Part shown: piece by piece, positions 32,653 to 52,669 of the stretch
How the letters are laid out: each line of letters opens with the position of its first letter
Position numbering within the stretch: position 1 is the first letter of the stretch
Assembly: GCA_943332615.1 (NCBI GenBank)
Contig: CALQQB010000004.1
Coordinates: 62,001-126,000, forward strand
Origin: Phenylobacterium deserti
GTDB taxonomy: Bacteria > Pseudomonadota > Alphaproteobacteria > Caulobacterales > Caulobacteraceae
DNA: 64,000 nucleotides
Direction of reading: 5' to 3'
Notes under the pieces: generated by a model
The model's input: only the letters and a program-made list of their open reading frames with translations
Database searches by the model: none
What the model was told of the DNA's origin: nothing
Translations under genes and position numbers: made by a program

Positions 32653-32684
32653 CTTGCTCCTCTAGCGACATGAGGATTCAGACT
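32653..32684 (+). promoter_or_regulatory. MerR-type operator/promoter A (P1B ATPase gene)
   Basis: CTTGCTCCTCTAG begins at 32653, with ATGAGG closing an imperfect palindrome at 32670-32675. The -35 element TTGCTC (32654-32659) is separated by 19 bases from CAGACT (32679-32684), the over-long spacing that MerR activators correct. The ATPase start follows 24 bases later, after AAGGAGGG. The same element recurs at 36402-36433 and 50480-50511. Confidence 0.7.
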
Positions 32685-32707
32685 GGTCAGGCACGAAGGA
32701 GGGTCTG

Positions 32708-34876
32708 ATGTCCGCCCCGCTCAAGACTCGCTACCGCATCGAAGGCATGGATTGCGGCGCCTGCGCCACGAAGATCGAAACGGCCGCGCGCCGGATGGAC
32801 GGCGTGGCCGAGGTTTCGGTCTCCGTCGCCGGCCACAGCATGGTCATCGAGCATAGTCCGCAGACCGACCTCACCGAGCTTGCGAAGCGGGTGACAGGCC
32901 TGGGCTACAAGGTCTTCCCCGTCGCCGAGCCGACCTCCAACGGCGCACCGGCCGCCGCCAATACCAACGCCAAGCCACCGGCCGCCCACAGCCACCTTGA
33001 CGCCGCGCCGCGAGCGGCATGGTGGCAGAGCGGCAAGGGACGCCTGATGATCGCGACCGGCCTGGCCGCCGCGGCGGCCTATGTCGTCTCGAAGCTCGCC
33101 CCCGGCCTCGGACAGTGGCCGTTCGCGGCGGCGATGCTGGTGGGCCTCATCCCCATCGGCCGGCGCGCGGCCATGGCGGCGCTGGCCGGCACGCCGTTCT
33201 CCATCGAGATGCTGATGACGATCGCCGCCGTGGGCGCGGTGTTCATCGGCGCCTCGCAGGAAGCCGCCGCGGTGGTGTTTCTCTTCCTGATCGGCGAGCT
33301 GCTGGAAGGTGTCGCGGCAGGCAAGGCCCGCGCCAGCATCCAGGCCCTGACGAAGCTGGTCCCCAAGACCGCCTTCGTCGAGCGCGGCGACGCGGTGGAG
33401 GAGGTCCCGGCGGAGCGCCTGGTCGTGGGGGACATGATCCTCGTGCGGCCCGGCGACCGCGTGCCCGCGGACGGGACCATCGAGTCCGGTACCGGCGAGA
33501 TCAATGAGGCGCCGGTGACCGGCGAGAGCCTCCCGGCTCACAAGGGCCCCGGCGGCTCGGTCTTCGCCGGCACGGTCAACGGCGACGCGGCGCTACATGT
33601 CCGCGTCACCGCGGCGGCGGCGGACAACACCATCGCGCGGGTCGTGAAGCTGGTTGAGGAGGCCCAGGAGAGCAAGGCGCCCACCGAGCGCTTCATCGAC
33701 CGCTTCTCGCGCTACTACACCCCGGCTGTCGTCGTGGTCGCCGCTCTGGTGGCGACGGTCCCGCCCCTGATGTTCGGCGGGGCCTGGCAGGCCTGGATCT
33801 ACAAGGGCCTCGCTATCCTGCTGATCGGCTGTCCCTGCGCCCTGGTGATCTCGACCCCCGCGGCCATCGCCGCCAGCCTGTCGGCGGGCGCGCGGCGGGG
33901 CCTGCTGCTGAAGGGCGGCGCCGTGCTGGAAGCGCTCGGCAAGATCAACCTCGTCGCGTTCGACAAGACGGGCACGCTGACCGCCGGCAAGCCGCTAGTG
34001 ACCGACGTGCAAGGCTTCGGCGTCTCCGAAGAAGAGGTCATCCGCTACGCCGTCGCGCTGGAAACCGGCTCGAGCCACCCGCTGGCGAGCGCGATCCTCG
34101 CGAAGGCCACGGAGATGGGCGTTACCGCGCCCGTGGCGACAGAGGCCTCCACCGTCGGGGGCAAGGGCGTCACCGGCACGGTTCAGAAGGCGCAGGTCTT
34201 CCTCGGGTCCGCCCAGGCCGCCGCGGCCCAGACAGCGCTGTCCGACGCTCAGACCGCCTTGGTCACGGCCTTGAGCGATCAGGGCAAGACGGTCTCCATT
34301 CTGCTGCGGGACGGCAAGGTCGTCGGCGCCATCGCCATGCGCGACGAGCCGCGCGCCGACGCGCAGGCGGGGTTGAAACTGCTGCAGGACGCCGGAGTCC
34401 GGACCGTCATGCTGACGGGCGACAACGCGCGCACGGCCCAGGCCATCGGACAGCAACTCGGCGTCGAGGTGCGCGCCGGCCTGCTGCCGGAAGACAAGCA
34501 ACGGATCGTCCAAGCCTACCAGGCCGAGGGCCTCAAAGTCGCCAAGGTGGGCGACGGCATCAACGACGCGCCGGCCCTGGCCGCCGCGCACGTCGGCATC
34601 GCCATGGGCGGCGGGACGGACGTGGCGCTGGAGACCGCCGGGGCCGCGGCGCTGCACGCGCGGGTCGCGGACGTGGCCGCGATGATCACGCTTTCCAAGC
34701 GCACCATGGGCAACATCGGCCAGAACATCACCATCGCGCTCGGCCTGAAGGCGGTGTTCCTGGTGACCACGGTCGTGGGCCTCACGGGCCTCTGGCCCGC
34801 CATCCTGGCCGACACGGGCGCGACGGTGCTGGTCACCTTGAACGCCATGCGGCTGCTTGGGCCTTCGCGGTCGTAG
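32708..34876 (+). CDS. zntA: Zn/Cd/Pb-exporting P1B-type ATPase (ZntA/CadA-like)
   Basis: A 722-residue heavy-metal ATPase that pumps Zn, Cd or Pb out of the cytoplasm. Residues ~5-70 form one HMA domain with GMDCGAC; a His-containing linker follows. Then come the membrane helices, the phosphatase TGES loop, the metal site CPC in LIGCPCALVIS, the DKTGTLT phosphorylation site, SSHPLASAIL and GDGINDAPAL. The CPC motif with this HMA domain is typical of the Zn/Cd/Pb group. Operator A lies directly upstream. An LspA-like gene follows seven bases after the stop, as in PbrA-PbrB/C lead-resistance units. Confidence 0.93.
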   Translation: MSAPLKTRYRIEGMDCGACATKIETAARRMDGVAEVSVSVAGHSMVIEHSPQTDLTELAKRVTGLGYKVFPVAEPTSNGAPAAANTNAKPPAAHSHLDAAPRAAWWQSGKGRLMIATGLAAAAAYVVSKLAPGLGQWPFAAAMLVGLIPIGRRAAMAALAGTPFSIEMLMTIAAVGAVFIGASQEAAAVVFLFLIGELLEGVAAGKARASIQALTKLVPKTAFVERGDAVEEVPAERLVVGDMILVRPGDRVPADGTIESGTGEINEAPVTGESLPAHKGPGGSVFAGTVNGDAALHVRVTAAAADNTIARVVKLVEEAQESKAPTERFIDRFSRYYTPAVVVVAALVATVPPLMFGGAWQAWIYKGLAILLIGCPCALVISTPAAIAASLSAGARRGLLLKGGAVLEALGKINLVAFDKTGTLTAGKPLVTDVQGFGVSEEEVIRYAVALETGSSHPLASAILAKATEMGVTAPVATEASTVGGKGVTGTVQKAQVFLGSAQAAAAQTALSDAQTALVTALSDQGKTVSILLRDGKVVGAIAMRDEPRADAQAGLKLLQDAGVRTVMLTGDNARTAQAIGQQLGVEVRAGLLPEDKQRIVQAYQAEGLKVAKVGDGINDAPALAAAHVGIAMGGGTDVALETAGAAALHARVADVAAMITLSKRTMGNIGQNITIALGLKAVFLVTTVVGLTGLWPAILADTGATVLVTLNAMRLLGPSRS

Positions 34877-34882
34877 TCGCCC

Positions 34883-35398
34883 ATGAGCCCCGCGGACGCG
34901 GAAATGGCAGAGAGAGCAGAGACCGGAGGGCGGATCCGCGCGTACACCCAATGGCCGCTCGGCATCGTCATCGCTTCGATGTGGACGGGCTGGGACCTGG
35001 CCGCGAAGGCGTGGCTCGAAGTGCGCCTCCGCGATGCGCCTGACCATCGACTGCCGCTGACGCCAGGGCTCGACCTGCGGCTCGTCTATGACCAGTCCCC
35101 CTGGCCGACCGCGGCGCTGCTGGGTTCGGCCTTGGCTGCGATCCTCCTGCTGGCGTTGCTGTTCAGGATTCGGCGCACGGCGCCCGCCGTCGCCGTGGCG
35201 CTGGGATTCGCTGGCTTCCTGGGCGACCTACTCGATCAACTTCCGGACCGGCAGCTGACCCATTTCATCGCCTTCCGGCCGTTCGGGCTGAACGTCCCAT
35301 GCTTCAATTTTTCCGAGGTCGGCATCGGCGCGCTCGCGCTCTATGCCGCCTGGACGGGGTTTCGGCGATTGCGCGTGGACCTTTCGGCGCGAACCTAG
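34883..35398 (+). CDS. Signal peptidase II-like protein (LspA/PbrC-like), altered active site
   Basis: A 171-residue, four-helix protein of the LspA family, which cleaves prolipoprotein signal peptides. The TGWDLAAKAWLEV start, the AGFLGDLLDQL segment (usual GNLIDR) and NVPCFNFSEVGIGAL (usual FNxAD) can be aligned. The first catalytic Asp is kept, but the second reads Glu, and the conserved Asn and Arg are changed to Asp and Gln. LspA paralogues beside lead/cadmium ATPases occur in pbr clusters. Here the housekeeping enzyme is presumably elsewhere, so this may be a specialised or non-catalytic form. It overlaps the convergent CDF gene by four bases. Confidence 0.75.
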   Translation: MSPADAEMAERAETGGRIRAYTQWPLGIVIASMWTGWDLAAKAWLEVRLRDAPDHRLPLTPGLDLRLVYDQSPWPTAALLGSALAAILLLALLFRIRRTAPAVAVALGFAGFLGDLLDQLPDRQLTHFIAFRPFGLNVPCFNFSEVGIGALALYAAWTGFRRLRVDLSART

Positions 35399-36378
35399 AC
35401 TCGTTCGTCCGACACGAGCGCGCAAGGCGGCCCGTCGCCGGTCTCGAACTGCAGGGTAGCGTGGTTGATCCTGAACTTCGTCTTCAACTGGCGGGCGATC
35501 TCGACCGTGAAGGCGTCGTCCACGGTCGCGTCGGCGCGGACCAAGTGAGCGGTGAGCGCCGTCTCCGTGGTGCTCAACGGCCAGATGTGCAGGTCATGGA
35601 CGGAGGTCACGCCGGGCAGGCCCGACAGGTGCGCGTGGACGTCGTCTCGGTCCACATGGTCGGGCACCGCGTCGATCGCCATCCCCGCGGAGTCCTTCAG
35701 GAGACCCCAGGTGCCAAGGGCGATCACCGCCACGATGGCGAGGCTGACGACGGGGTCGAGCCAGAGCCACCCTGTGTAGATGATCGCCAGACCGGCCAGC
35801 ACCACGCCGGCCGAGACGCCGGCGTCCGCCGCCATGTGAAGGAAGGCGCCGCGGATGTTGATGTCGCCCTTGCGCCCGCGCATGAAGAGCATCGCCGTCG
35901 CGGCGTTGATGACGATGCCGATGGCGGCGACGATCATCACCGTTCCGCCCTGCACCGGTGTGGGCGTCTCGAAGCGCCGGATGGCCTCCCAGGCGATGGC
36001 CCCGATGGCGAGCAGCAGCAGGACAGCGTTCCCCAGCGCGGCCAGGATCGACGCGCGGCCGAAGCCATAGGTGCGCTTCGCGGTGGGCTTGCGCCGTCCT
36101 AGCCACGTCGCCCCCCACGCCAAAACGAGGCCGGCGACGTCGCTGAGGTTATGTCCCGCGTCGGCAAGCAGCGCGAGCGAGTTGGCGGCGATCCCGTAGA
36201 CCGCCTCGATGACCACGAAGACGATGTTCAGGCCGATACCGATGGCGAAGGCGCGGTCGAAACTCGCTGGCGCATGGGCGTGTCCGTGGCCGCCGCCATG
36301 GCTGTGGCCGTGGTCATGGCCATCGCCCTTGGCGTGGTCATGGGCGGCATGATCGTGTTCGGCGCTGTGTCCAGCCAT
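35395..36378 (-). CDS. czcD: Cation diffusion facilitator (CzcD/ZitB-like)
   Basis: A 327-residue six-helix Zn/Cd/Co proton antiporter of the inner membrane. The N-terminus is His-rich (HSAEHDHAAHDHAKGDGHDH). The transport-site motifs are LADAGHNLSDVAG in TM2 and HMAADAGVSAG in TM5, each with the required His and Asp. The C-terminal cytoplasmic domain has VHDLHIWPLSTTETALTAHL. Operator B lies 24 bases upstream of the start, so it has its own metal-induced promoter even though it also closes the long minus-strand gene train. Confidence 0.92.
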   Translation of the reverse strand: MAGHSAEHDHAAHDHAKGDGHDHGHSHGGGHGHAHAPASFDRAFAIGIGLNIVFVVIEAVYGIAANSLALLADAGHNLSDVAGLVLAWGATWLGRRKPTAKRTYGFGRASILAALGNAVLLLLAIGAIAWEAIRRFETPTPVQGGTVMIVAAIGIVINAATAMLFMRGRKGDINIRGAFLHMAADAGVSAGVVLAGLAIIYTGWLWLDPVVSLAIVAVIALGTWGLLKDSAGMAIDAVPDHVDRDDVHAHLSGLPGVTSVHDLHIWPLSTTETALTAHLVRADATVDDAFTVEIARQLKTKFRINHATLQFETGDGPPCALVSDERV

Positions 36379-36401
36379 GGTGGGCTCCGCGGTTCTCGGC
36401 G

Positions 36402-36433
36402 AGGATCGGTCCTCTAGCCGCTAGAGGAGCAAG
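36402..36433 (-). promoter_or_regulatory. MerR-type operator/promoter B (CDF gene)
   Basis: On the minus strand, CTTGCTCCTCTAG is followed by CGGCTAGAGG, forming the palindrome CCTCTAG-CCG-CTAGAGG when read on the plus strand (36411-36427). The -35 TTGCTC (36432-36427) and GATCCT (36407-36402) are 19 bases apart. The CDF start codon is 24 bases further on, the same distance as at site A. Confidence 0.72.
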
Positions 36434-36436
36434 CGC

Positions 36437-37177
36437 TTAATTCGCCATCGCCGGGGCGGGTTGCACGGCCAGAGGCGCGGTCGCGGTGGACGGGGTCTCC
36501 ATGAGGTCGGCCATGAGCAGCAGCAGCAGGAAGCCCACGAAGAACATTGCCGTGATCCAGGGCCTGTCCGGGACCTCATGGGCCTCGACCAGCAGCTCCT
36601 CCGTGACCAGGTAGAGCAGCGCGACAAGCCCAAAGGCCAGGAAGCCGGTCACCACGGCCGGTGGCAGGGTGGCGATCGGGGCGCTGAGCAGCGCCCCGAA
36701 GGGCAGCAGCAACGCCAGCAGCGCCGTCACCCCGACCGTGCGCGCCCAACTCCCGGTCTTGAGCCCCACCGCAATCGTCAGACCCAGGAACAGGATCTCG
36801 ATCGTCAGCGCGATGGTCAGGAGAAGCCCCTGGGTTTGTCCAGCCACGAACGCCAGCCCCAGGACCAGGCCGTCGATGAAGATATCGACGCCGATGGTCA
36901 CCAGGAGGCCGACGGGGCCGGACGCGCGCGCTTCCAGCGTCTGGATCAGGAGCATGACGGCGATGCCGGCGCCGCCGCCGATCATCACCGGCCAGACCGC
37001 GCCGGCATGCTTCAGGTCGGGCAGGATTTCACCGGCCGCGGCGGCGAAGACCACGCCGGCTGCGAAGTGCTGGATCGCGCTTACCAGTTGCGGGCCAGGC
37101 CGTCGCCAGGCGGTGGCGCCGGCGCCGACGATGGCGGCCAGGACCGGCGGCAGGGTGAAGAGCAGGATCTGCATCAT
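36437..37177 (-). CDS. ZIP family metal transporter
   Basis: A 246-residue membrane protein with about eight helices, of the ZIP/GufA type, which move Zn or other divalent cations toward the cytoplasm. TM4/TM5-type motifs are seen: IQHFAAGVVFAAAAGEILPD near residue 40, IGVDIFIDGLVLGLAF at mid-length and VTEELLVEAHE near residue 215. The ATG pair at 37177/37174 starts the first helix; the extension to 37249 is not typical. An importer in a resistance cluster is odd, but ZIP proteins are recorded in such islands and may give broad metal intake or work in reverse. It ends four bases before operator B. Confidence 0.82.
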   Translation of the reverse strand: MMQILLFTLPPVLAAIVGAGATAWRRPGPQLVSAIQHFAAGVVFAAAAGEILPDLKHAGAVWPVMIGGGAGIAVMLLIQTLEARASGPVGLLVTIGVDIFIDGLVLGLAFVAGQTQGLLLTIALTIEILFLGLTIAVGLKTGSWARTVGVTALLALLLPFGALLSAPIATLPPAVVTGFLAFGLVALLYLVTEELLVEAHEVPDRPWITAMFFVGFLLLLLMADLMETPSTATAPLAVQPAPAMAN

Positions 37178-37261
37178 CCCTGAGCGCTGCGCACCGTGGC
37201 GGGTTCCCCACCGGCGGTCGGATGGCTGGCGCGCCAGGTGTGCAGACACATGGCCACGCGC

Positions 37262-37618
37262 CTAGCTCCGCGGGATGGCCGCCGCCGCATGGCCCCCGTA
37301 CCGGATCACTTCGACCTTTTCCAAGGTCACGAGACCCACCTCGTGGACATCGCCGAGGCTGGCGACGAACTCCCGCAGCCGAGTCTCCTCATCGACGATT
37401 TCGATGACGACCGGCAGGTTGTCGTTCAGGCTGAAGGCCCGGCGCTGGTGAAGGTGGGCCGACTCGCCGAAGCCTTGGATGGCGCGCAGCACCGTGGCGC
37501 CGGCGAGGCGCGCCTCCCGCGCATGCCTCACGATGTCCTCCACCAGCGAGCGGTCGCCGATGAGCGCGTTCTCGTCGGTGTAGATGCGGAGCAGGACAGC
37601 TGATCCTGAGGCTTCCAT
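37262..37618 (-). CDS. DUF190 protein (second of two in the island)
   Basis: A 118-residue protein of the DUF190 family, PII-like in fold by family knowledge. It has AVLLRIYTDENALIGDRSLV, then GATVLRAIQGFGES, LPVVIEIVDEETRL and the C-terminal VEVIRYGGH. It is close to the protein at 43698. DUF190 proteins often lie beside transporters or CrcB, suggesting a regulatory subunit that senses a nucleotide or ion; this is inferred. It is 84 bases ahead of the ZIP gene on the same strand. Confidence 0.83.
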   Translation of the reverse strand: MEASGSAVLLRIYTDENALIGDRSLVEDIVRHAREARLAGATVLRAIQGFGESAHLHQRRAFSLNDNLPVVIEIVDEETRLREFVASLGDVHEVGLVTLEKVEVIRYGGHAAAAIPRS

Positions 37619-37759
37619 GAGGTTTTCCTTCCCGTGCGCGCTCTTGCGGCGCGCGCGTCCCTTTGGGGACAGTGACATCATCGATCACGTCACGACAGCG
37701 TCGCGTTGCCACGTGAGGCTGGGTCGCAGGCTTGGTCGCCGGAGCCACCATCCCCTGCC

Positions 37760-38242: not shown

Positions 38243-38279
38243 CTGGCCAAACTCCCACTATGGCGATGACGCCACGCGT

Positions 38280-39217: not shown

Positions 39218-39306
39218 GGTCATGCTCCTATGGGCTTGATCGGCCGTGAGATTGGGCCTTGCCGCGAGGTCCGGCTGGAAGGCGTGCGTCGACCGCAGAG
39301 ACGGGC

Positions 39307-39816: not shown

Positions 39817-39878
39817 GAAGGAATCCTTCCGATGCGCCGGAGCGGCGCCGACTGGCGACGGAGGCACGGGTCGGGGCG

Positions 39879-40310: not shown

Positions 40311-40318
40311 CCGGAAAT

Positions 40319-40432
40319 TCAGACTCCCATCAAGAGCAAGGTGAGGACGACAGCGAAGGCGATGAGCGAGGCGGCCAGCAGCAGCACCGCCCAGCGCGAC
40401 GCGCGGCTTTCGGGCGGTTTCGACTCATCCAT
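40319..40432 (-). CDS. 37-residue single-helix membrane protein
   Basis: A short frame beginning MDESKPPESRASRW and continuing into one uninterrupted hydrophobic helix (AVLLLAASLIAFAVV, then LTLLLMGV), ending in TGA. The polar N-terminus and positive SRASR suggest N-inside insertion in the inner membrane. Its ATG overlaps the last eight bases of the M23 peptidase gene, so it is likely to be translated by coupling. Small membrane proteins of this kind often adjust a transporter or protease; here a partner would be the peptidase or the P1B ATPase. It is below usual gene-finder length limits. Confidence 0.6.
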   Translation of the reverse strand: MDESKPPESRASRWAVLLLAASLIAFAVVLTLLLMGV

Positions 40433-41141
40433 GTCGCGCCTGCGCGGGGGCGCGATGTGCCGCGAGGCCGGTGGACAGTGACGCTGGAAGGGCAGGCAGC
40501 ACGACGAGCGGATCGAGGCGGGCGCCCCGGCGCCCAGTGAATTCGACGTGCACGTGATTGGTCATGCCGGCCGGGTAACGGACGCCCAGGTCCTGCGCTT
40601 GGCCGATCATATCGCCGGCTTCGATCAGCGCCCCGGGCCGCACGAGCGGCCGCAGGTAGAGCACCCGCGCAGTGTAACGCGTGACAGGATTGACGATCTC
40701 AACATATCGCAGCGAATCCGAGCCGCCGTAGGCGGCGCCGATCCGCGTCACCACGCCGGCGATCGGCGCTCGAATGGCCTCGCCAGGCGCCGCCACCAGG
40801 TCGACGCCGTGGTGGGCGCGCCGTCCGCCGTCGCGCGCCGCCCCGAAGGCGCCCGACCCGTAGGCGTCGACGCCACGGACGCCCCGGTCGGCGGGCAGCG
40901 CCACGTCGAGCCGTCCGTCCCCGTCGAGATCGATCCCGGGCAGGGGCCGCTGACCATTCGCCGGTGCGGCGTCGGCCGCCGCGGCGAGGCGAGGCGCCGG
41001 CATGCCACGCTCCGTGGCGGCCCCGGCCCAGACGCCGCCGCCGAATCCCGCCAGCACGGCGATCGACAGGCCCAGGCGCCCGACCTTCGACGCCGGAAAA
41101 CGGATGGCCCGAAGCCAAGTCTGGAGGTGTGGCGGCCTCAC
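40425..41141 (-). CDS. M23 family peptidase-like protein with a calcium-loop motif
   Basis: A 238-residue exported or membrane-anchored LytM/M23 protein. A hydrophobic helix lies at ~21-42. The segment GIDLDGDGRLDVALP (~69-83) looks like a D-x-D-G-D-G calcium loop. The M23 domain follows, with the zinc ligands His110 and Asp114 (HHGVDL) and His196-Val-His198 (NHVHVEF). The usual Y-x-H-L histidine reads LYLRP, so catalysis may be lost, as in regulatory LytM proteins. The start overlaps the P1B ATPase stop (ATGA), an unusual coupling of a wall enzyme to a metal pump. Confidence 0.8.
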   Translation of the reverse strand: MRPPHLQTWLRAIRFPASKVGRLGLSIAVLAGFGGGVWAGAATERGMPAPRLAAAADAAPANGQRPLPGIDLDGDGRLDVALPADRGVRGVDAYGSGAFGAARDGGRRAHHGVDLVAAPGEAIRAPIAGVVTRIGAAYGGSDSLRYVEIVNPVTRYTARVLYLRPLVRPGALIEAGDMIGQAQDLGVRYPAGMTNHVHVEFTGRRGARLDPLVVLPALPASLSTGLAAHRAPAQARHG

Positions 41142-43681
41142 GCCGTCTTGTCCTTGTAGGCCAGCAACCGCAGGGCGTTGGCCACGACGAGCAGCGTCGA
41201 ACCTTCATGGAAGACAACCGCCGCGCCGATCTTCAGGCCGAAGAGGGTCGCCGGGATGAGGAAGGCCACCATGCCCAGGCTGACGAAGAGGTTTTGCTTG
41301 ATGATGCCGCTCGTGCGCCGGCTCAGCCCCACCGCGAACGGCAGGTGGGTCAGGTCATCGGCCATCAGGGCGACGTCGGCGGTCTCCAGAGCGACGTCCG
41401 ATCCGGCGGCGCCCATGGCGATGCCGACGGTGGCGTTGGCCATGGCCGGCGCGTCGTTGACGCCGTCGCCGACCATCGCGACCTTCCCGGCCGCGGCCTT
41501 CATCGCGCGGATGACCTCGACCTTGTCCTCGGGCATCAGCCCGGCCTTGGCTTCGTCGAGGCCGAGGTCCTGGGCGATGGCGTTGGCCACGGACGGGTTG
41601 TCGCCAGACAGCATGACGATGCGCTTGATGCCGAGCGCGCGCAGCCGCTGGATCACCGCCTTCGCCGCCGGCCGCGCGGTGTCCATCAAGCCGAGAGCAC
41701 CCAGGTAGCGGTCCCCGTGCCGCACGATCACCACTGTGCGGCCACGGCGCTCGAGGCGCTCGGCGTCGTTCAGCACCGCCTCCGGCAACGAAAGGCCAGG
41801 GTCGGACGCGAACATGCCGGGTTTGCCGATCAGGACCTCCTGTCCCGCGACCTGCGCCCGCACGCCTTGGCCCGTGAGGCTTTGGGCCCCTTCCGCGATC
41901 AGGCGGGGATGGTCGGCGAGGCGTTCGCCGCCATCGCGGACGATCGCTGCGGCCAGGGGGTGGTCGCTCAGCGTTTCCACGGCCACCGCGACCGCGAGCA
42001 GTTCGTGGTCCTCCACCCCAAGTGCGGCCTCGATGTCGGTCAGCCGCGGCTTGCCCTCAGTAAGCGTGCCCGTCTTGTCGAAGGCCATGGCGGTGAGCGT
42101 CCCGAGGTTCTCCAGCGGGCCGCCGCCTTTCACCAACACCCCGCCCCGACCGGCGCGCGCGATGCCGCTCAAGACGGCGCTGGGTACCGAGATGGCCAGG
42201 GCGCAAGGGCTGGCGGCGACCAGCACGGCCATGGCGCGGTAGAAGCTGACCCTGAACGGCTCGTCGACGACCGCCCAGGCGAACATCAAGAGCCCGACAC
42301 CGACCAGGACGGCCGGCACGAAGATCCGCTCGAAGCGGTCTGTGAAGCGCTGGGTAGGCGAGCGCTGGGCTTCGGCCTCGGCGACCATCTTAACCACCCG
42401 CGCCAGCGTGCTCTCGCCAGCCTTGCGCGCGACCGAGACGTCCAGGGCGCCGGCGCCGTTGATCGTGCCTGCGAACACCCGGTGGGCGGCGCCCGCCTTG
42501 GCGAAATCGAGATCCGGCGCGGGCGCGGCCCGCTTGTCCACCGGCGCGCTCTCGCCGGTGACGGGCGCCTGGTTCACGCTGCTTTCACCAGCGACCACGA
42601 CGCCGTCGGCGGCGATCCGCTCATTGGGCCGCACCAGCACGACGTCGCCGATCACCAGTTCGGCCACGGCCACGTCCTCAGTCCTGTCGCCCCGGCGAAC
42701 GGTGGCACGCTCCGGCGCCAGTTCGGCCAGAGCCTCGATGGCGCGCCGCGCGCGGCCCATGGCGTAGTGCTCAAGGGCATGGCCGATGCTGAAGAGGAAT
42801 AGCAACAAGGCGCCTTCGGCCCATTGGCCCAGCGCCGCTGCGCCGGCCGCCGCCACCAGCATGAGGGTGTCGATTTCGAAGCTGCGCCGGCGTAGGTTGC
42901 CGATCGCCTCGACCAGCGTGAAGTAGCCGCCGAATACATAGGCTGCGACGTAGAAGGCCAAGGGGAAGCCGCCTGGCCATCGTTGGCTGATCAGCCAGCC
43001 CGCCACGAGCGTGACGCCCGACAAAACGGCGAAGATCAGTTCGCCGCGCGGACCGAAGATCCCGCCATGATCGCCATGGCCGCCCGAACCAAGGTTGTGC
43101 CCACCCGCGCCATGGTCATGAGCGGCTGCGACGGGCGCAGGTCCGCTCCCCGCATCGTTTTGGGACGCCGGCGTCGGCGCACGCGCGGCTTGCGAAGGGG
43201 CTCTCGGCGCGGCGGACGGCTGGGGCGCGCCTTGTGCCAGGACACGTCCGCCGGCGGCACGGATCGCCGTCTTGAGATCCACCCCGTCGCTCTTGGCGCG
43301 GCTGAACTCCACGAAGCCATAGCCGCTGGGCCCGATCTCCGCCTGCACGACACCCGGTTGCGCCCGGAGGCGGGCCGCGAACCCCCGCACCGACCGGGCG
43401 TGGGCGCCCGCGCCGAGGTCGAAGCGGATGTGGCCGAACCGGTCGTCGATGACCGCGCCGGCCTGCAGGGCAAAGCCCCGCAGCTGGTCAAGGGTGAGAC
43501 GGCCGGCATCGAAGTGGATGCAGAGGGCGCTTGCGCCCCCGTCGGCCGTCGTCACGTGGACCTCCGATACGCCCTCTCGGCCCTTCAGGAGGTCAGTCAG
43601 GTCGCTCACGCAGCGCGCGCACGCCGCCCCCGATTCCGGCAGCAGCAGCGGGAGATCCAGGCGGAGCCTGTCGTCGTTCAT
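41138..43681 (-). CDS. SPC-type P1B metal ATPase with N-terminal metal-binding domains
   Basis: An 847-residue P-type ATPase. The metal site in TM6 reads SPC (VAASPCALAIS), the mark of the P1B-4 group (Co/Zn/Ni/Cd, such as CzcP and CoaT). The core has TGES, DKTGTLT, DHPLAAAIV and GDGVNDAPAM. P1B-4 pumps usually lack N-terminal metal domains. This one has ~220 extra residues: an HMA-like domain with CARC, a second HMA-like repeat without cysteines (~75-150) and a His-rich linker (AAHDHGAGGHNLGSGGHGDH). DUF190 lies 16 bases upstream and the M23 gene overlaps its end by four bases. Confidence 0.9.
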   Translation of the reverse strand: MNDDRLRLDLPLLLPESGAACARCVSDLTDLLKGREGVSEVHVTTADGGASALCIHFDAGRLTLDQLRGFALQAGAVIDDRFGHIRFDLGAGAHARSVRGFAARLRAQPGVVQAEIGPSGYGFVEFSRAKSDGVDLKTAIRAAGGRVLAQGAPQPSAAPRAPSQAARAPTPASQNDAGSGPAPVAAAHDHGAGGHNLGSGGHGDHGGIFGPRGELIFAVLSGVTLVAGWLISQRWPGGFPLAFYVAAYVFGGYFTLVEAIGNLRRRSFEIDTLMLVAAAGAAALGQWAEGALLLFLFSIGHALEHYAMGRARRAIEALAELAPERATVRRGDRTEDVAVAELVIGDVVLVRPNERIAADGVVVAGESSVNQAPVTGESAPVDKRAAPAPDLDFAKAGAAHRVFAGTINGAGALDVSVARKAGESTLARVVKMVAEAEAQRSPTQRFTDRFERIFVPAVLVGVGLLMFAWAVVDEPFRVSFYRAMAVLVAASPCALAISVPSAVLSGIARAGRGGVLVKGGGPLENLGTLTAMAFDKTGTLTEGKPRLTDIEAALGVEDHELLAVAVAVETLSDHPLAAAIVRDGGERLADHPRLIAEGAQSLTGQGVRAQVAGQEVLIGKPGMFASDPGLSLPEAVLNDAERLERRGRTVVIVRHGDRYLGALGLMDTARPAAKAVIQRLRALGIKRIVMLSGDNPSVANAIAQDLGLDEAKAGLMPEDKVEVIRAMKAAAGKVAMVGDGVNDAPAMANATVGIAMGAAGSDVALETADVALMADDLTHLPFAVGLSRRTSGIIKQNLFVSLGMVAFLIPATLFGLKIGAAVVFHEGSTLLVVANALRLLAYKDKTA

Positions 43682-43697
43682 CGCGCCCTCCGCGCCC

Positions 43698-44093
43698 CTA
43701 GGAATGGTCTTCGGTGTGGTGGCCGCCGTAGCGGAGGACCTCGACCTTCTCGAAGGTCATCAGGCCAATGTCCGGCAGGTCGTTGAGGCTCGCGACGAAG
43801 CCGCTGAGCCTCGCCTCTTCGTCGACGATCTCGATCACCACGGGGAGGTTGTCGTTGAGGTCGAAGGGCCGGTGGCCATGGAGGCGCGCCGACTCCCCAA
43901 AGCCCTTGCGGCCCCGCAGGACGGTCGCGCCCGCGAGCCGCGCGTCCTTCGCCCGACGCACGATCGTCTCGAGCAGGGAGCGGTCGCCAATCAGCGCGCG
44001 CTCGTCGGTGTAGATGCGCAAAAGGACGGCTTGCCCGGGCGCCAGGGGTGCTGGGGGCGTTGTCGCGGTCGTGGGGTCAGGTGGGTTGGTCAT
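43698..44093 (-). CDS. DUF190 protein (first of two)
   Basis: A 131-residue DUF190 protein: a Pro/Thr-rich start, AVLLRIYTDERALIGDRSLL, GATVLRGRKGFGES, LPVVIEIVDEEARLSGF and the end VEVLRYGGHHTEDHS. Family fold is PII-like by established knowledge. It sits between czcA (62 bases upstream) and the SPC-type ATPase (16 bases downstream), so it probably acts on one of these pumps. It is more than half identical by eye to the protein at 37262, which precedes the ZIP gene. Confidence 0.84.
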   Translation of the reverse strand: MTNPPDPTTATTPPAPLAPGQAVLLRIYTDERALIGDRSLLETIVRRAKDARLAGATVLRGRKGFGESARLHGHRPFDLNDNLPVVIEIVDEEARLSGFVASLNDLPDIGLMTFEKVEVLRYGGHHTEDHS

Positions 44094-44155
44094 GGCATGC
44101 CTCGGAATTGGGGGGCGATGCGCCGGCGTGGTTGGGGTCCACGCCCGCGCCCGGC

Positions 44156-47100
44156 TCAGGACGCCAGGGGGGATGGCGTCGCTGGGCTCTCCGCCGCAGC
44201 CGCGGGCTCGCGTCCACGGCGGAGGATGAGTTGCGAGATGGCTGGCAGGACCACGAGCGTGACGGCCGTGGCCGTGATCAGGCCGCCGATGACCACCATC
44301 GCCAGCGGTTTCTGCACCTCGGCGCCCGTGCCATGCGCCAGGGCCATGGGGATGAACCCGATGGCCGGGACGAGGCCGGTCATCAGCACTGGGCGGAAGC
44401 GTTCGATCGCCCCGTCGTAGATCGCCTTCGCGACCGGGACGCCGTCATCGATCCGCTGGCCGATGCCGGTCATGACCACCAGCCCGTTCAGGACGGCCAC
44501 GCCTGCGAGCACGATGAAGCCAACGGCCGCGGAGATCGAGAAGGTGATGCCCGTCACGGCCAGGGCGAAGACCCCGCCGGCCAACCCCAGCGGGATGGCC
44601 GCAAACACCGCCGCCGCCCGGGCAAACCCTCCGAGCGCCATGTACAGGAGCACGAAGATCATGATGAAGCAGATTGGCACGACCAGGCTGAGACGCGCCG
44701 TAGCCGCCTTCAGGTTTTCGTACTGCCCGCCCCAGGTGATCCATGAGCCCGTTGGAAGGGCGACTTTCGACACCTTGGCCTGAGCCTCGGTCACGAAAGA
44801 GCCGATGTCGCGGTCGCGCACATTGACCTGGATCACCACCCGACGCTTGCCGTCCTCGCGGCTCACCTGGTTGAGCCCGTCCGAGAAGCGGAATTCGACA
44901 ACCTCGCGAAGCGGAACCGAGCGATGCGGCTGGCCTTCGGCTGAGGGCAGCATTACCGGCAGGGCGCCCAGCAGGTTCAGGTCATTGCGCTGATTGCCCG
45001 GCACGCGCACGACGATGTCGAACCGCCGGTCGCCTTCGAAGACCTCGCCCGCCTCGCGCCCGCCCAGGGCGGCGGAGACGGTGTCGGCCACCTCCTCCAC
45101 CGTCAGGCCGAACCGCGCGATAGCGGCGCGGTCGAACCGCACCTCCAGCGTCGGCGCGCCGGCGGTCTGTTCGACGCGGACGCCCTCCGCGCCCTGAATG
45201 GTCTGCAGGGCCGCGCCGATCTTGGCGGCCGAGGCGCTCATCTTGTCGAGATCGTCGCCGTAGAGCTTGATCGCGACGTCGCCCCGCACCCCGGCGATGA
45301 GCTCGTTGAAGCGCATCTGGATCGGCTGGGTCACTTCGTAGGCGTTGCCGAGCAAGGGCGCGACCTTGTCCTCGATGCGTTTCACGACCTCGGATTTGGT
45401 CTTCACGCCCTTGGGCCACTTGTCCTGCGGCTTCAGGATGATGAACCCGTCCGACTGGTTGACGGGCATCGGGTCGGTCGCCACCTCGGCCGTGCCGGTC
45501 TTGGAGAACATCATCTCCACTTCCGGCAGGGAGCTCACCGCCTTTTCGACCTGCTGCTGCATGGCCCGCGACTGCTCGAGCGCCGTCGAGGGAATCTTCA
45601 GCGCCCCCATGGCGACGTTCTTCTCGTCGAGCTGTGGGATGAACTCCTGGCCGAGGGTGGTGAACACTACGCCCGCCAAGGCGAACACCGCGATGGCCCC
45701 GCCGATAAACGGCCAGGGCCGGGCGATCGAGCGTTGCAGAACGGGCTCATACCAGCGCTTGGACCACTGGATGACCCGCACTTCCTTTTCCGCGACCTTG
45801 CCGCGCATCAGGATCGCCACCATCGCCGGGACGAAGGTCAGCGAGAGGATGAACGCCGCGCCCAGCGCCAGCATGATGGTGATGGCCATGGGCGAGAACG
45901 TCTTGCCCTCGACGCCGGTGAAGGTGAGCAGCGGGGCGAAAACCAGGAAGATGATCGCCTGGCCGTACACCGTCGGACGGATCATCTCCTGGGCGGCGTG
46001 CAGGACGGTTTCCAGGCGTTCGCGCAGCACCAGCAACCGGCCCTGATGGTGTTGTCGCTCGGCCAGCCGCAGCAGGCAGTTCTCGATGATGATGACCGTG
46101 CCGTCGACGATCAGGCCGAAGTCCAGCGCGCCCAGGCTCATCAGGTTGCCGGGCACCTTCAGGCTGTTCATGCCGATGGCCATCATCAGGAACGATAGCG
46201 GGATGATCAGCACCGCAATCAGGGCGGCGCGGACATTGCCGAGCAGCAGGAAGAGCGTGGCCGCCACCAGGATGGCGCCCTCCGTCAGGTTCCTCTGCAC
46301 CGTGCCCACGGTCGCGTTCACCAGCACGGAGCGGTCGAGCGTCGTGTTGACCACCACGCCTGGCGGCAGCGATTTCTTGACCACCGCCAGCTTCTCGCCG
46401 ACCGCCTTGGCGACGGTTCGGCTATTCTCGCCGATCAGCATCAGCGCTGTTCCGATGACGACCTCATCGCCGTTCTTGCTGGCGGCGCCGGTGCGCAGAT
46501 CGCCGCCGACGCGGACCGTCGCGACGTCGCGCACCGCCACCGGCACCGTGCCGCGCGTCGCGATGACCGCGGCCTCGATCTCGTCCAGGTCCCGGACCCG
46601 CGCGTCGGCGCGGACCAGGTAGGCCTCGCCGGATCGCTCCACGAAATTGGCGCCGACCGAGAGGTTCGCCGCCTCCAGGGCCTTGGCGAGGTCGGTGTAG
46701 GACACGCCATAGGCCGCCAGCTTCGAGGCGTCGGGCTCGACCACATACTGCTTGGCGTAGCCGCCGATGGAGTCGATGCCGGCCACGCCGCCGACGGTGC
46801 GCAGCTGGGGCCGGATGATCCAGTCCTGGACGGTCCGAAGATAGCCGGCCTGGGCGATCGGATCGGTCAGGCGTTCGCCTTCCACCGTCAGATAGGCCCC
46901 ATCGCTCTGCCAGCCCGGAGCGCCGTCGCGCCGCGTTGCGCCGCGCCCGCCAGGGTTGGCGAACTCGACGGAGTACATGAAGACTTCGCCCAGGCCGGTG
47001 GTCACCGGACCGATCTGAGGCTGGACGCCGGCCGGCAGGCTGTCGCGGGCCTGGGTGAGGCGTTCGGCGACCTGCTGGCGGGCGAAGTAGAGGTCGGTCT

Positions 47101-47398
47101 TTTCGGTGAAGACCGCCGAGACCTGCGAGAACCCGTTGCGGGAGATCGACCGCGTCGTCTCCAGGCCGGGGATCCCGGCCAGGGCCGTCTCCACCGGGAA
47201 GGTGACTCGCTTTTCGATCTCGATCGGCGAGAGCGCCGGCGAGATAGTGTTGATCTGCACCTGCTTGTTGGTGATGTCGGGGACGGCGTCGATCGGCAGC
47301 TTCGTTAGCTGCCAGCCGCCGTAGATGGCGATCATCAGGGTCAGGATGACGACGTACCAGCGCGCCTGGACGGCGAGGGAGAGAATGCGGCCGATCAT
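44156..47398 (-). CDS. czcA: CzcA-type heavy-metal RND exporter (second copy)
   Basis: A 1080-residue Zn/Co/Cd RND pump. TM4 carries DFGLIVDGTVIIIEN, the HME1 signature; the N-terminus reads IGRILSLAVQARWYVVILTL and VPDITNKQVQINTISPAL. It is related to the copy at 27465 along its whole length (roughly two thirds identical by eye), but here the complete czcC-czcB-czcA set is present on the same strand. The 31-base gap to czcB and the shared direction indicate one operon under operator C. Confidence 0.93.
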   Translation of the reverse strand: MIGRILSLAVQARWYVVILTLMIAIYGGWQLTKLPIDAVPDITNKQVQINTISPALSPIEIEKRVTFPVETALAGIPGLETTRSISRNGFSQVSAVFTEKTDLYFARQQVAERLTQARDSLPAGVQPQIGPVTTGLGEVFMYSVEFANPGGRGATRRDGAPGWQSDGAYLTVEGERLTDPIAQAGYLRTVQDWIIRPQLRTVGGVAGIDSIGGYAKQYVVEPDASKLAAYGVSYTDLAKALEAANLSVGANFVERSGEAYLVRADARVRDLDEIEAAVIATRGTVPVAVRDVATVRVGGDLRTGAASKNGDEVVIGTALMLIGENSRTVAKAVGEKLAVVKKSLPPGVVVNTTLDRSVLVNATVGTVQRNLTEGAILVAATLFLLLGNVRAALIAVLIIPLSFLMMAIGMNSLKVPGNLMSLGALDFGLIVDGTVIIIENCLLRLAERQHHQGRLLVLRERLETVLHAAQEMIRPTVYGQAIIFLVFAPLLTFTGVEGKTFSPMAITIMLALGAAFILSLTFVPAMVAILMRGKVAEKEVRVIQWSKRWYEPVLQRSIARPWPFIGGAIAVFALAGVVFTTLGQEFIPQLDEKNVAMGALKIPSTALEQSRAMQQQVEKAVSSLPEVEMMFSKTGTAEVATDPMPVNQSDGFIILKPQDKWPKGVKTKSEVVKRIEDKVAPLLGNAYEVTQPIQMRFNELIAGVRGDVAIKLYGDDLDKMSASAAKIGAALQTIQGAEGVRVEQTAGAPTLEVRFDRAAIARFGLTVEEVADTVSAALGGREAGEVFEGDRRFDIVVRVPGNQRNDLNLLGALPVMLPSAEGQPHRSVPLREVVEFRFSDGLNQVSREDGKRRVVIQVNVRDRDIGSFVTEAQAKVSKVALPTGSWITWGGQYENLKAATARLSLVVPICFIMIFVLLYMALGGFARAAAVFAAIPLGLAGGVFALAVTGITFSISAAVGFIVLAGVAVLNGLVVMTGIGQRIDDGVPVAKAIYDGAIERFRPVLMTGLVPAIGFIPMALAHGTGAEVQKPLAMVVIGGLITATAVTLVVLPAISQLILRRGREPAAAAESPATPSPLAS

Positions 47399-47429
47399 TT
47401 CGGCAAGCCTCCGCGCATGAGGGGATGGG

Positions 47430-48602
47430 TCATTCTTCTTCCGCGCCCTTGCCGAGCTCGGCCTTCAGCAGGAAGGCGTTCTTGACGGCGATCTGCTGGC
47501 CCGCCGTGAGGCCCTCGGTGATCGCCACGCGGCCGCCGGAGCGTTGACCGAGCGCGACCCGCTGCACGCGGAACCCCGTCGTGGTGCGCAGGAAGACCAC
47601 GTCGTGGCCGTCGACGGTCTGCACCGCCTCTTCCGGCACGACGATTCCGCTGGTCGCCGAGCGACGCGCCGTGATGCGTGTGCGCACCAGCTGTCCCGGC
47701 TGCAGCACGCCGGAGCCGCCGACCAGCGCCAGGACGACCGTAGCGGAGCGCGTCTCCTCGCTGACGCCTGGGGTGACGGACCGCACCACGGCATTCACCG
47801 TCTGGCCGGTGTTCACTTCCACCACGGCGGTGTCGCCGGGCTGGACGCGTTGGGCGTCGGTGGCCGTGACGGCCGCCTCGATCTGGATCTTGGCCGGGTC
47901 GGAGATCCGGAAGAGTTCAGTCTCCGGCTGCACGAAGGCGCCGAGGCTCACGGTCATGGCTGTGATCCGCCCGTTGATCGGGCTGGTGACCGCCAGGTAT
48001 CGCCCGTCCCGAGAGACGGCCGCCGCGCCGGCGGCGCTGGAGGCGCGGCGCGCCTCGGCTTCGGCTGCGACAAGTTCAGCCTGGGCGGCTTCATAGTCTT
48101 GCCGGGGGCTGACCTTCTGCTCGTATAGGCGGCGCTCGCGGGCCAGCACCTTGCGGGCGAGGTCCGCCTTGGCCGAGGCGACACTGCGGTCGGCGGAAAT
48201 CTGCGCCGCCTCGCGGCTCTCGACGAACGCCAGCGTTTCGCCCGCGCGCACGGGATCCCCGAGGCGCTTCGTCAGGCGCGCCACCGAGCCGGCCGCGCGC
48301 GCGGTGAGCACCGCCATCCCGGTCGGTTCCGCCTCGACGGTGCCCTGGGCCACGATCTCGGACGCTAGGCCGCCGACCGCGACGGCCTGGACCTGGACGC
48401 CCGACGCGGAGAGGCGCGCCTGGTCCATGGCGAGCACGCCGGCGGGCGCCGCGGCTTCACCGTCCTTGGCGGCTTCCGCGGCGGGGCCTGCCTTGGGTGT
48501 GGTCAGCTTGGCGGCGCCGAACCCGACGCCGGCAGCCACGATGAGCGCCCCGCCGGCCAGCAGCCATTGACGGTTGGCGGCGATGAAGGATGTGCGAGGC
48601 AT
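47430..48602 (-). CDS. czcB: CzcB-type periplasmic adaptor protein
   Basis: A 390-residue membrane fusion protein linking CzcA to CzcC. It has an N-terminal signal/anchor helix (QWLLAGGALIVAAGVGFGAA), the lipoyl segment TARAAGSVARLTKRLGDPVR, a short coiled hairpin (~135-195), the barrel (LGAFVQPETELFRISDPAKI) and a membrane-proximal domain ending FLLKAELGKGAEEE. Its start overlaps the czcC stop by one base (TGATG), so the two are coupled. The long His-rich N-terminal segment of some CzcB proteins is absent. Confidence 0.9.
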   Translation of the reverse strand: MPRTSFIAANRQWLLAGGALIVAAGVGFGAAKLTTPKAGPAAEAAKDGEAAAPAGVLAMDQARLSASGVQVQAVAVGGLASEIVAQGTVEAEPTGMAVLTARAAGSVARLTKRLGDPVRAGETLAFVESREAAQISADRSVASAKADLARKVLARERRLYEQKVSPRQDYEAAQAELVAAEAEARRASSAAGAAAVSRDGRYLAVTSPINGRITAMTVSLGAFVQPETELFRISDPAKIQIEAAVTATDAQRVQPGDTAVVEVNTGQTVNAVVRSVTPGVSEETRSATVVLALVGGSGVLQPGQLVRTRITARRSATSGIVVPEEAVQTVDGHDVVFLRTTTGFRVQRVALGQRSGGRVAITEGLTAGQQIAVKNAFLLKAELGKGAEEE

Positions 48603-49864
48603 CAGCGGTCTCCGAGGGAGCGGCCTTGAAGGCGCGCAAGGCCGGCCTCGGCGCGCAGGCGCGCCAATTGGGCTTCGATGGTTTGGGCGCGCGCGTCGGC
48701 CAGGGCTCGGCGCGCGTTGAGGAGTTCGACCAGCGGGGCCTTGCCGGCCTCGTAGGCGATCTGGGTGAGCCGGTAGGCTTCGACGGCCGTGGTTTCGCTC
48801 TCGGTGGCGGCGCTCACCCGGGTCAGCGCGGCGTCCACTTGGAAGAGCCCGGTGCGCAGGTCGGCCTGGGCATCGAGCCGCGCCGCGTTCAGGCGGGCCT
48901 CCGCCCCTTGCAGTTCGCCCTGCGCCGCGGTGATGTTCCCGCGGTTCTGGTCGAAGACCGGAATGGGTACGGAGAAGCCCGCGACAAGCGCGGTGGAGTC
49001 ATCGCCGCTGAAGCGGCGCACGCCCCCCGAGACCGTGACGTCAGGCACGGCGCGGGTGCGTTCCACCCGGACCCGACGGGCCGCGGCTTCCCGCTCCGCT
49101 TCGGCCGCGACGACGGCCGGCGTGGTCAGCACATCGATATCGCGTCGGGGCAAAGTCGAGTTCGCCTCGGTCAGCAAGCTCTGGCTGAGCGAGGTGAACG
49201 GCGCGGCCGAACCCGACAAGGCCGTAAGCCGTGCGAAGGCGCCGGTCCGTTCTGCCCGGGCGGCGTCGAGCGCGGCGCGGGCCGAGGTGACCGCCGCCTG
49301 GGCCTGGAGGCTGCGGAGCTCGGCTTCCTTGCCGGCCTCCACCAGGGCCCGGGCCACCCGCAGCACCTCCTCGGCGAGCGTCAAGCCCTCCTGTGCCAAC
49401 GCAACCTGGCGCTCGGCGGCCTCCGCCTGGCCGTAGGCGTCGGCCAGGGCGAAGCCATAGTCCGCCCGAGACTGGGCCAGCCTCGCGCGAGCGGCCTCGA
49501 GACCGGCCCGTCCGGCCGCGACACGTGCGCCGCGCTTGCCGCCCAGTTCCAGCGGCTGGCCGATCGAGAAGGTGGTCTCGGCCTGGTCCGTCCCGCGGAA
49601 CGGACCCGACCCGTTGAAATTTTCGTATTCGAGCGACGCGGTCGGATTGGGCCGCGCCGCGGCTTGCCGTGCGAGGCCTTCGGCCTGGCGGACGCTCGCC
49701 GCGGCTTCGGCGAGGCGTGGGGCCGTTTCGCGGGATTGCAGGAGCAGGGCCGCGAAGGCTGGCGCGGGTTCGGCGACGGCGCGTCCGGCGGGCGCAAGGG
49801 CGCCGAGCAGGGCGATCGCGCTCGCGACCGCCCAAAGCGGATCGCGACGCATGATGAGTGACAT
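48602..49864 (-). CDS. czcC: CzcC-type outer-membrane channel
   Basis: A 420-residue TolC-family protein. It has a signal peptide (VASAIALLGALAPAGRAVA), two helical repeats with long coiled segments, the family stretch TTFSIGQPLELGGKRGARVA and, near the end, YEAGKAPLVELLNARRALAD. It forms the outer-membrane exit of the CzcCBA pump. The ATG at 49864 is used; ATG at 49852 is possible. The upstream CzcI-like gene ends 56 bases before it. Confidence 0.9.
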   Translation of the reverse strand: MSLIMRRDPLWAVASAIALLGALAPAGRAVAEPAPAFAALLLQSRETAPRLAEAAASVRQAEGLARQAAARPNPTASLEYENFNGSGPFRGTDQAETTFSIGQPLELGGKRGARVAAGRAGLEAARARLAQSRADYGFALADAYGQAEAAERQVALAQEGLTLAEEVLRVARALVEAGKEAELRSLQAQAAVTSARAALDAARAERTGAFARLTALSGSAAPFTSLSQSLLTEANSTLPRRDIDVLTTPAVVAAEAEREAAARRVRVERTRAVPDVTVSGGVRRFSGDDSTALVAGFSVPIPVFDQNRGNITAAQGELQGAEARLNAARLDAQADLRTGLFQVDAALTRVSAATESETTAVEAYRLTQIAYEAGKAPLVELLNARRALADARAQTIEAQLARLRAEAGLARLQGRSLGDR

Positions 49865-49920
49865 GGTGGTGGAGTTTCCCTCTGACTGTGACGACGGCGG
49901 CGCCTCAGGGCGCGTCGACG

Positions 49921-50328
49921 TCAGAGTCTCGGGGGGCGCTCCAGTCGGGTTGACGAATTCATCGCCAGTTCAGCCCCGGACAGCACGGGCCAAGCCATGC
50001 CGGAGTGTTCGGTCACGGCGATCTCGCCGCCGATTTCCGGTAGGCCCGCGGCGTGAGACGAACAATGCCCGGTGCAATGCGACGCGCCGCCGAAGGACTT
50101 GCCGTGGGGGGCCTTATCAGGTCCATCCAGACCCGATGGCTGGCCCTTGCCCTCGATGCTTTGCTCAACGCCGGCCTGGCCCGCGTCGAGCGACGCGTGC
50201 GCGACGGAAGTGGTGAACAGCGACGTCAGGACGATCGACAGCACCATCAACAAGGAGATCGCCAGCCGACGGCCGACGCTTTCGCGTGGCAGTACAGCGG
50301 CTCGGGCCCTGGTGACGGAGCGGGTCAT
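49921..50328 (-). CDS. CzcI/DUF2946-like small exported protein
   Basis: A 135-residue protein with an N-terminal membrane or signal helix (RRLAISLLMVLSIVLTSLFT, cut near AHA). The mature part is small and contains SHCTGHCSSHAAGLP, a Cys/His cluster likely to bind metal in the periplasm. Similar small proteins (CzcI, DUF2946) open czc and cop operons in proteobacteria and may tune induction. It is the first gene behind operator C on the minus strand. A gene of the same general type is at 53873. Confidence 0.65.
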   Translation of the reverse strand: MTRSVTRARAAVLPRESVGRRLAISLLMVLSIVLTSLFTTSVAHASLDAGQAGVEQSIEGKGQPSGLDGPDKAPHGKSFGGASHCTGHCSSHAAGLPEIGGEIAVTEHSGMAWPVLSGAELAMNSSTRLERPPRL

Positions 50329-50479
50329 TCCACGGGCCTTGTGACCGGCTGGCCCTCAGCGAGCAAGAGGTTTGTCGTGGCCCTCGCAGGTCGATGTTCG
50401 TGACGCATCGCCCGCGCGACCCGCGGAGGCGCGGTGCGGCAGCCTGCTGAAAGGGTGGGAGGACGGCTCATCGCGCACA

Positions 50480-50511
50480 GTCCTAGAACCTCTAGCTACT
50501 AGAGGAGCAAG
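50480..50511 (-). promoter_or_regulatory. MerR-type operator/promoter C (CzcI-czcCBA operon)
   Basis: On the plus strand CCTCTAG-CTA-CTAGAGG (50489-50505) is a perfect palindrome followed by AGCAAG. Read on the minus strand, the -35 TTGCTC (50510-50505) and TAGGAC (50485-50480) are 19 bases apart and point to the CzcI-like gene and czcCBA. The CadR-like MerR gene starts 30 bases away in the other direction, so the site would also control the regulator itself. Confidence 0.75.
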
Positions 50512-51471: not shown

Positions 51472-51498
51472 TGTCGGCGAGCGGTGGGCCGGTTGCGC

Positions 51499-52638: not shown

Positions 52639-52669
52639 TTGAACCTCAAGTCACTTGAACTTCTATGTT
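52639..52669 (+). promoter_or_regulatory. MerR-type promoter for the 52731-53469 genes
   Basis: The -35 TTGAAC (52639-52644) and -10 TATGTT (52664-52669) are exactly 19 bases apart. Between them is the palindrome TCAAGT-C-ACTTGA (52646-52658). This is the classic MerR activator design. It differs in sequence from operators A-C and so belongs to the divergent MerR at 52616. Confidence 0.75.

Follow-up and report, generated by a model that had tools for sequence, protein, structure and literature searches.

The czcCBA pump of Pseudomonas is driven by CzcRS, a two-component system that senses metal in the periplasm (PMC10393844). CadR, a regulator of the MerR family, has two validated genomic sites in P. 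aeruginosa, at cadA and at one other place (PMC12301328), and in P. putida it reaches czcCBA through czcRS3 (PMC8469834). Predicted CadR/PbrR regulons, comprising P-type ATPases, cation diffusion facilitators (CDF) and pbr genes, were described by Permina et al. in 2006, with the remark that members of such regulons may sit outside a single locus (PMC1526738). In Caulobacter, the czrCBA-zntA operon is activated by Zur (PMC4176598). Here we consider a stretch of 64,000 nucleotides from Phenylobacterium deserti (assembly GCA_943332615.1, contig CALQQB010000004.1, positions 62,001 to 126,000 of the forward strand; the window in what follows), in which near-identical candidate MerR operators, A, B and C, precede a P1B-type ATPase, a CDF exporter and a czc operon, respectively. 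One MerR-family protein encoded beside site C, P0001, very probably serves all three units through these promoters, because regulator and operator occur together across the genus, the operator stands before similar targets in relatives, and the only other metal-type MerR found in the genome has a different operator.

The 13-mer CTTGCTCCTCTAG is present without mismatch at 32653-32665 on the plus strand and at 36433-36421 and 50511-50499 on the minus strand, with no further copy anywhere in the assembly of 4,671,784 bases. When the full dyad, TTGCTCCTCTAGYRRCTAGAGG, was searched for in the whole genome with up to three mismatches, nothing was recovered beyond the three sites and site B read in reverse, and the reversed-pattern control gave no match. 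A preliminary description of the window, made from its letters, had claimed three near-identical repeats and proposed a genome scan for more; the repeats were found as claimed, and A, B and C are the only sites in 4.67 Mb. Inside the window, the 13-mer at three mismatches is uninformative (17 matches, shuffles giving a mean of 11.65 with standard deviation 3.37). TTGCTC and a second hexamer, 19 bases apart, stand at each site as previously described (CAGACT at A, GATCCT at B, TAGGAC at C), so that a dyad operator lies within a promoter spacer of 19-20 bp, as in the metal-sensing branch of the MerR family. The gap between half-sites, given earlier as two to four bases, measures three at all sites, A reading CGA and then CATGAGG, with two mismatches. 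As all three repeats lie within 18 kb of one metal-gene cluster, they might be imagined to be products of chance, or leftovers of local duplication without regulatory meaning. Chance was rejected because the reversed pattern found nothing in the genome, and local duplication because the flanks beyond the operator show no similarity by eye; position and spacing are moreover conserved across the genus, and such an origin appears hardly credible.

The association of regulator and operator was followed in 100 Phenylobacterium genomes, that of the window included, an orthologue of P0001 being defined by at least 50% identity and an operator by no more than three mismatches. Among the matches listed, at least 39 genomes have an orthologue (G046 and G017 only in pieces) and 40 an operator match; both are found in 38, the orthologue alone in 1 (G046), the operator alone in 2 (G013 and G065) and neither in 59 (Fisher p 5e-24, relatedness ignored). 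Because the reversed pattern differs in oligomer content from the CTAG-rich operator, the 61 orthologue-free genomes were taken as background, and a match occurs in 2 of them. A site accompanies 40 of 44 orthologues in loci fetched around operator matches, a proportion biased upward by this way of fetching; for that reason we added loci fetched by the P0001 protein alone. In 35 of these 37 a site with at most two mismatches lies no more than 300 bp from the start of the gene (no mismatch in 18, one in 9, two in 8), and none of 36 control stretches reaches even three mismatches.

The genes behind the operator in relatives were examined in loci fetched around most operator matches, with sites counted at up to two mismatches and target families assigned on representatives. 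The 93 sites comprise 40 within 250 bp of an orthologue, which mostly read into a czc-type operon, and 53 elsewhere (23 genomes). By our own tally, 24 of the distal sites precede a CDF or P-type ATPase gene and 10 a gene for a cytochrome c-FTR1 permease facing a 290-residue HMA-CDF fusion; the rest stand before DUF3703 (3), signal peptidase II (3), phospholipid-methyltransferase-like (2) and TonB receptor (2) genes or are unassignable (9). Accessory CDF genes whose products are at least 72% identical to that of the window have a site in 4 of 5 loci, and in the remaining one (G010) a czc-side operator stands on the same strand about 7 kb upstream of the gene. The core CDF paralogue has none in 25 loci, the top scorers among some 95 genomes that gave a CDF match, where the best mismatch counts are 5-9. 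For the ATPase, a site at up to three mismatches was found in all nine loci, from 6 genomes, each of which has the regulator.

A matrix was built from 81 distinct sites of relatives (the 93 less duplicates and those too near an end), with the sites of the window excluded. A -10 of the form YANNNT falls in it exactly at the 19-bp spacing, and the best matches in the window are A (39.5 bits), B (35.3) and C (39.6), followed by the operator of the second MerR at 23.8. Site A combines the best -10 of the three with the worst dyad, and site B the best dyad with the worst -10. One could therefore propose that P0001 controls only unit C, and perhaps itself, A and B being inherited, weakly bound or unused. 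However, A retains a good -10 and B a perfect dyad, and ATPase and accessory CDF genes keep the site, at differing places in relatives, in the proportions given above; a regulator confined to unit C seems to us quite improbable. At A and B the ATG lies 24 bases past the hexamer, as had been pointed out, and 54 from the first T of the -35, although the equal distance is not special, since ATGs following regulator-distant sites in relatives cluster at 51-61. The fourth base of the -35 is uniform within genomes (TTGCTC or TTGATC; reached by 20 of 5000 permutations), possibly through shared ancestry, and was left unused.

Several observations weigh against a single regulator for the three units. 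Site A has a degenerate half-site, its dyad scoring 26.8 bits against a minimum of 26.7 in relatives, and the -10 region of site B is poor even when set beside the sites of relatives (-1.5 bits, their 10th percentile being 3.6). One genome, G046, has a partial orthologue without a site, and G013 and G065 have sites without an orthologue. At three mismatches the reversed-pattern control fires in most of the 100 genomes, and single matches of this quality mean little. Two of the 37 protein-fetched loci are without a site, as are, at up to two mismatches, 4 of the 44 orthologues in operator-fetched loci. Three of the 35 protein-fetched sites (L135, L136 and L137) retain the dyad beside the regulator and have lost the TTG of the -35, being perhaps repressor-only or decayed. 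Finally, the genes behind 19 of the 53 distal sites are of other kinds or could not be recognised. Taken together with the co-occurrence, the same target kinds in relatives, the site-less core CDF and the different operator of the other MerR, the data nevertheless support the earlier proposal that one regulator controls all three units: the operator is present at every unit and tied to the regulator in relatives.

Six MerR homologues were found in the genome, four of them weak and, by eye, without the C-terminal cysteine pair. The other metal-type protein, P0006, might act on one or more of the three sites, either by itself or through cross-talk with P0001: it belongs to the same family, is encoded only 1.1 kb away, has Pro at the recognition position too, and its half-site CTCAAG is one base from CTCTAG. 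On the other hand, its motif occurs without mismatch only once in the genome, at its own promoter, and once more with three mismatches. Relatives of P0006 at 59-68% identity have CTCAAG or TTCAAG wherever a dyad was found, none being found in 2 of 7 loci. With a distinct operator of its own, a low score of that operator on the matrix of A-C type sites and a different recognition helix (T-P as opposed to V-P in P0001), P0006 was rejected as the main regulator of A, B and C, and even a partial share in their control is unlikely.

The wider comparison of homologues points to a recognition code. Where a dyad was found for proteins with Glu at the second of the two recognition residues, its half-site reads CTGTAG or CCGTAG, in agreement with published correlated positions (PMC5045206), while those with Thr there vary (CTCTAG, CTCCAG, CTATAG, CTACAG), which means that the code is not strict. 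The pairing seen for P0001, Pro with C at operator position 5, is not in Table 2 of that report (PMC5045206), to whose numbering we mapped the residues and operator positions ourselves. Three relatives of the regulator in Devosia (L154-L156, 51-52% identity) carry TTGATG-CTCTAG-N3-CTAGAG beside the gene, which extends this operator type beyond the genus; at two other distant loci (L152 and L153) the operator was not found.

P0001 contains the MerR winged-helix domains (PF13411, PF00376 and PF09278 above cut-off). Its top Protein Data Bank matches are solved CadR chains, with whose cysteines (6jgv and others) C79, C115 and C122 align, C134 being a fourth. It remains below every curated metal-MerR equivalog cut-off, with 99-108 bits on ZntR, CueR, CadR-PbrR and MerR models: 104.1 on CadR-PbrR TIGR02047 (cut-off 151.45), and 108.2 and 100.8 on the ZntR models NF007069 (143) and TIGR02043 (167.95). 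The Glu that CadR-PbrR proteins have in the recognition position, paired with a G at position 5 of the operator (PMC5045206), is Pro17 in P0001, and the G is a C. The earlier label of a CadR-like MerR with three CadR-spaced cysteines is thus apt as to the cysteines and does not extend to CadR-PbrR membership. The gene of a Fur-family protein (50998-51468; PF01475, 34.4 bits) lies directly after the MerR gene and is followed by that of a DsbA-like protein (51484-52311).

P0001 would act as a cytosolic sensor of a soft divalent metal, most likely Cd, Zn or Pb, its dimer occupying CCTCTAG-N3-CTAGAGG in three sigma-70-type promoters whose spacer, at 19 bp, is over-long. Metal held by C79, C115 and C122 would cause it to distort the DNA, bringing the -35 and -10 into alignment, and RNA polymerase would then start the ATPase, the CDF and the czc operon together. 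Export from cytoplasm to periplasm by units A and B would in this way be joined to export out of the cell by unit C. The distortion mechanism is established for MerR and PbrR; for P0001 we infer binding, identity of the metal, induction and DNA distortion alike.

The features of the window are collected in Table 1. Each operator was said to point at a metal gene, which is correct for the ATPase, the CDF and the czc operon as a whole; site C is, however, not near czcI, whose ATG follows the first T of the -35 at a distance of 182 bases, with a putative 48-codon open reading frame (ORF) between them that may be a chance occurrence. Judging from spacing, the signal-peptidase-II-like gene is probably cotranscribed with that of the ATPase. 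Unit C probably continues into the genes for DUF190, another P-type ATPase and an M23 peptidase, because the HLK1 plasmid of P. zucineum has these genes after czcCBA as well, and cotranscription into them is likewise probable. A 270-residue membrane-type protein (36437-37249), with no NCBIfam (E 0.001) or Pfam match, ends 4 bases before site B; its homologue in L083 and L107 is encoded downstream of a CDF, behind an operator.

Table 1. Operators, regulators and target genes in the window
Feature	Coordinates	Strand	Remarks
Operator A	32653..32675	+	-35 TTGCTC 32654-32659, -10 CAGACT 32679-32684; degenerate second half-site, CATGAGG; 26.8 bits for the dyad, 12.7 for the -10 region
P1B-type heavy-metal ATPase (ZntA/CadA-like), unit A	32708..34876	+	TIGR01525 578 bits, TIGR01512 510 bits, both above cut-off
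Signal-peptidase-II-like protein	34883..35398	+	PF01252 24.6 bits, slightly below cut-off 25
CDF exporter, accessory type, unit B	35395..36378	-	TIGR01297 263 bits
Operator B	36411..36433	-	Perfect dyad; -35 TTGCTC 36432-36427, poor -10 GATCCT 36407-36402; dyad 36.8 bits, -10 region -1.5 bits
DUF190, second P-type ATPase, M23 peptidase	40425..44093	-	Probable downstream part of unit C
CzcA/CusA-family RND pump	44156..47398	-	TIGR00914 1503 bits, above cut-off
CzcB-like periplasmic adaptor	47430..48602	-	TIGR01730 158.5 bits, above cut-off; TIGR00999 226.5, below its cut-off
CzcC-like outer-membrane channel, TolC family	48602..49864	-	Below curated cut-offs
CzcI-like small protein	49921..50328	-	Named from its position and a weak similarity; NCBIfam (E 0.001) gave no match
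48-codon ORF (putative)	50325..50471	-	Starts at predicted +3, 39 bases from first T of site C -35; stop overlaps czcI start (ATGA)
Operator C	50489..50511	-	Lies between the regulator gene and the czc operon; perfect dyad; -35 TTGCTC 50510-50505, -10 TAGGAC 50485-50480; dyad 35.9 bits, -10 region 3.8 bits
P0001, MerR-family metal sensor predicted to regulate all three units	50541..50990	+	Recognition helix V16-P17; cysteines 79/115/122/134
Second metal-type MerR P0006	52128..52616	-	44% identical to P0001; own operator, not predicted to read A-C
Operator of second MerR	52639..52660	+	TTGAACCTCAAG-N3-CTTGAAC; 17.5 bits on P0001-site matrix, relatives' lowest 26.7

A separate matter is the start of the czc-side transcripts. 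With a 19-bp spacer and initiation seven bases past the -10, the +1 is predicted 37 bases from the first T of TTG, which in the window would place the starts near 32691 (A), 36395 (B) and 50473 (C). An ATG occupies positions 37-39 (predicted +1 to +3) at 36 of the 40 regulator-adjacent sites, at exactly 37 in 30 of these, as compared with 3 of the 53 others, which suggests leaderless mRNA; such messages are common in Caulobacter, where 375 were reported (PMC4117421). At 28 of the 93 sites this ATG opens a CDF-like protein of 162-239 residues; two of these proteins appear truncated, and most begin with a Cys-rich stretch such as MSSCS. This small gene is absent from the window, where the 48-codon ORF starts at +3 instead. 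The gene table of the P. zucineum plasmid (NC_011143.1, L235) starts the small cation transporter 23 codons later, at 278722 rather than 278653, and so misses its Cys-rich beginning. The idea that short ORFs before czcI encode conserved leader peptides was abandoned, since a conserved DNA element accounts for the VTHS ending that they share.

In relatives, a second conserved element, GTNA-N5-TAAC (mostly TAACGCATTCCC) with TATAG at a fixed distance, immediately precedes czcI in 17 of 39 czc-side regions, the reversed control giving none; it lies about 120-715 bases downstream of the czc-side operator (L051, L055, L072, L075, L077, L089, L092 and others). It resembles the GTTA-N5-TAAC box of Zur in Caulobacter (PMC4176598), so that in relatives a Zur promoter may follow the MerR promoter in series; a Zur-like box with a -10 of the tested form was not found on the czc side of the window. 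Back-to-back operators about 40-50 bp apart were observed at L050, L063, L066, L079, L084, L086, L096, L097, L107 and L111, with the HMA-CDF fusion read one way and the cytochrome c-FTR1 permease the other, which would pair an exporter with a possible importer under one sensor.

A broader proposition, whose chances we regard as about even, is that Phenylobacterium and some relatives possess a distinct MerR subfamily whose Pro-type helix reads CCTCTAG-N3-CTAGAGG. It would directly command a dispersed multi-metal regulon of RND, P1B and CDF exporters (in relatives also the HMA-CDF fusion facing the permease), bypassing a CzcRS relay. The czc promoter would yield a leaderless mRNA with +1 on the A of the ATG, a short ORF still starting there where the first gene was lost. 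If this is true, one cytosolic sensor governs all pump types in part of the genus, replacing the divided control of the Pseudomonas kind, where a cytosolic MerR serves the ATPase and the RND pump answers to a two-component system. The pairing of Pro with C at operator position 5 would be a testable addition to the MerR recognition code, and these promoters would offer a clean setting for the study of leaderless translation, because the MerR operator fixes the transcription start. Search listings of the open-licence literature, surveyed by titles and the starts of abstracts, gave no account of this operator or of a MerR-controlled czc operon in Phenylobacterium.

Compared with the described systems, P0001 resembles Pseudomonas CadR in being, by prediction, of the cytosolic Cd/Zn sensor type of the MerR family, with three aligned cysteines, a dyad between -35 and -10 and probably more than one promoter bound; it differs in having a site directly at the czc promoter, in its recognition helix and half-site, and in missing the CadR-PbrR cut-off. 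The RND pump is of the same type as in the CzcRS-czcCBA system and its control differs; a search for kinases with TIGR01386 gave none above cut-off in the genome and 56 weaker matches, none of them on this contig. Caulobacter, of the same family of bacteria, likewise combines RND and P1B export in czrCBA-zntA, under Zur control there. The regulons of Permina et al. differ in that czc is unmentioned in the main text of that paper and the operators have another composition (PMC1526738). The pbr operon of Cupriavidus metallidurans, regulated by PbrR, shares the 19-bp spacer, the imperfect dyad and the weak -10, and a shortened spacer was reported to lessen the metal dependence of the PbrR promoter (PMC3431237). 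It forms, however, one cluster beside its regulator, whereas here the units are dispersed and include a czc pump. Sites of relatives before P-type ATPases, signal peptidase II and the FTR1 permease recall pbrA, pbrC and pbrT, PbrT being of the FTR1 kind. Less usual are the probable direct action of a MerR on a czc promoter, the Pro in the recognition position together with a matching operator change, and the ATG at the predicted +1 to +3 of most regulator-adjacent sites. The mechanism is thus that of a textbook MerR regulator, and the wiring is a less usual variant common to the relatives.

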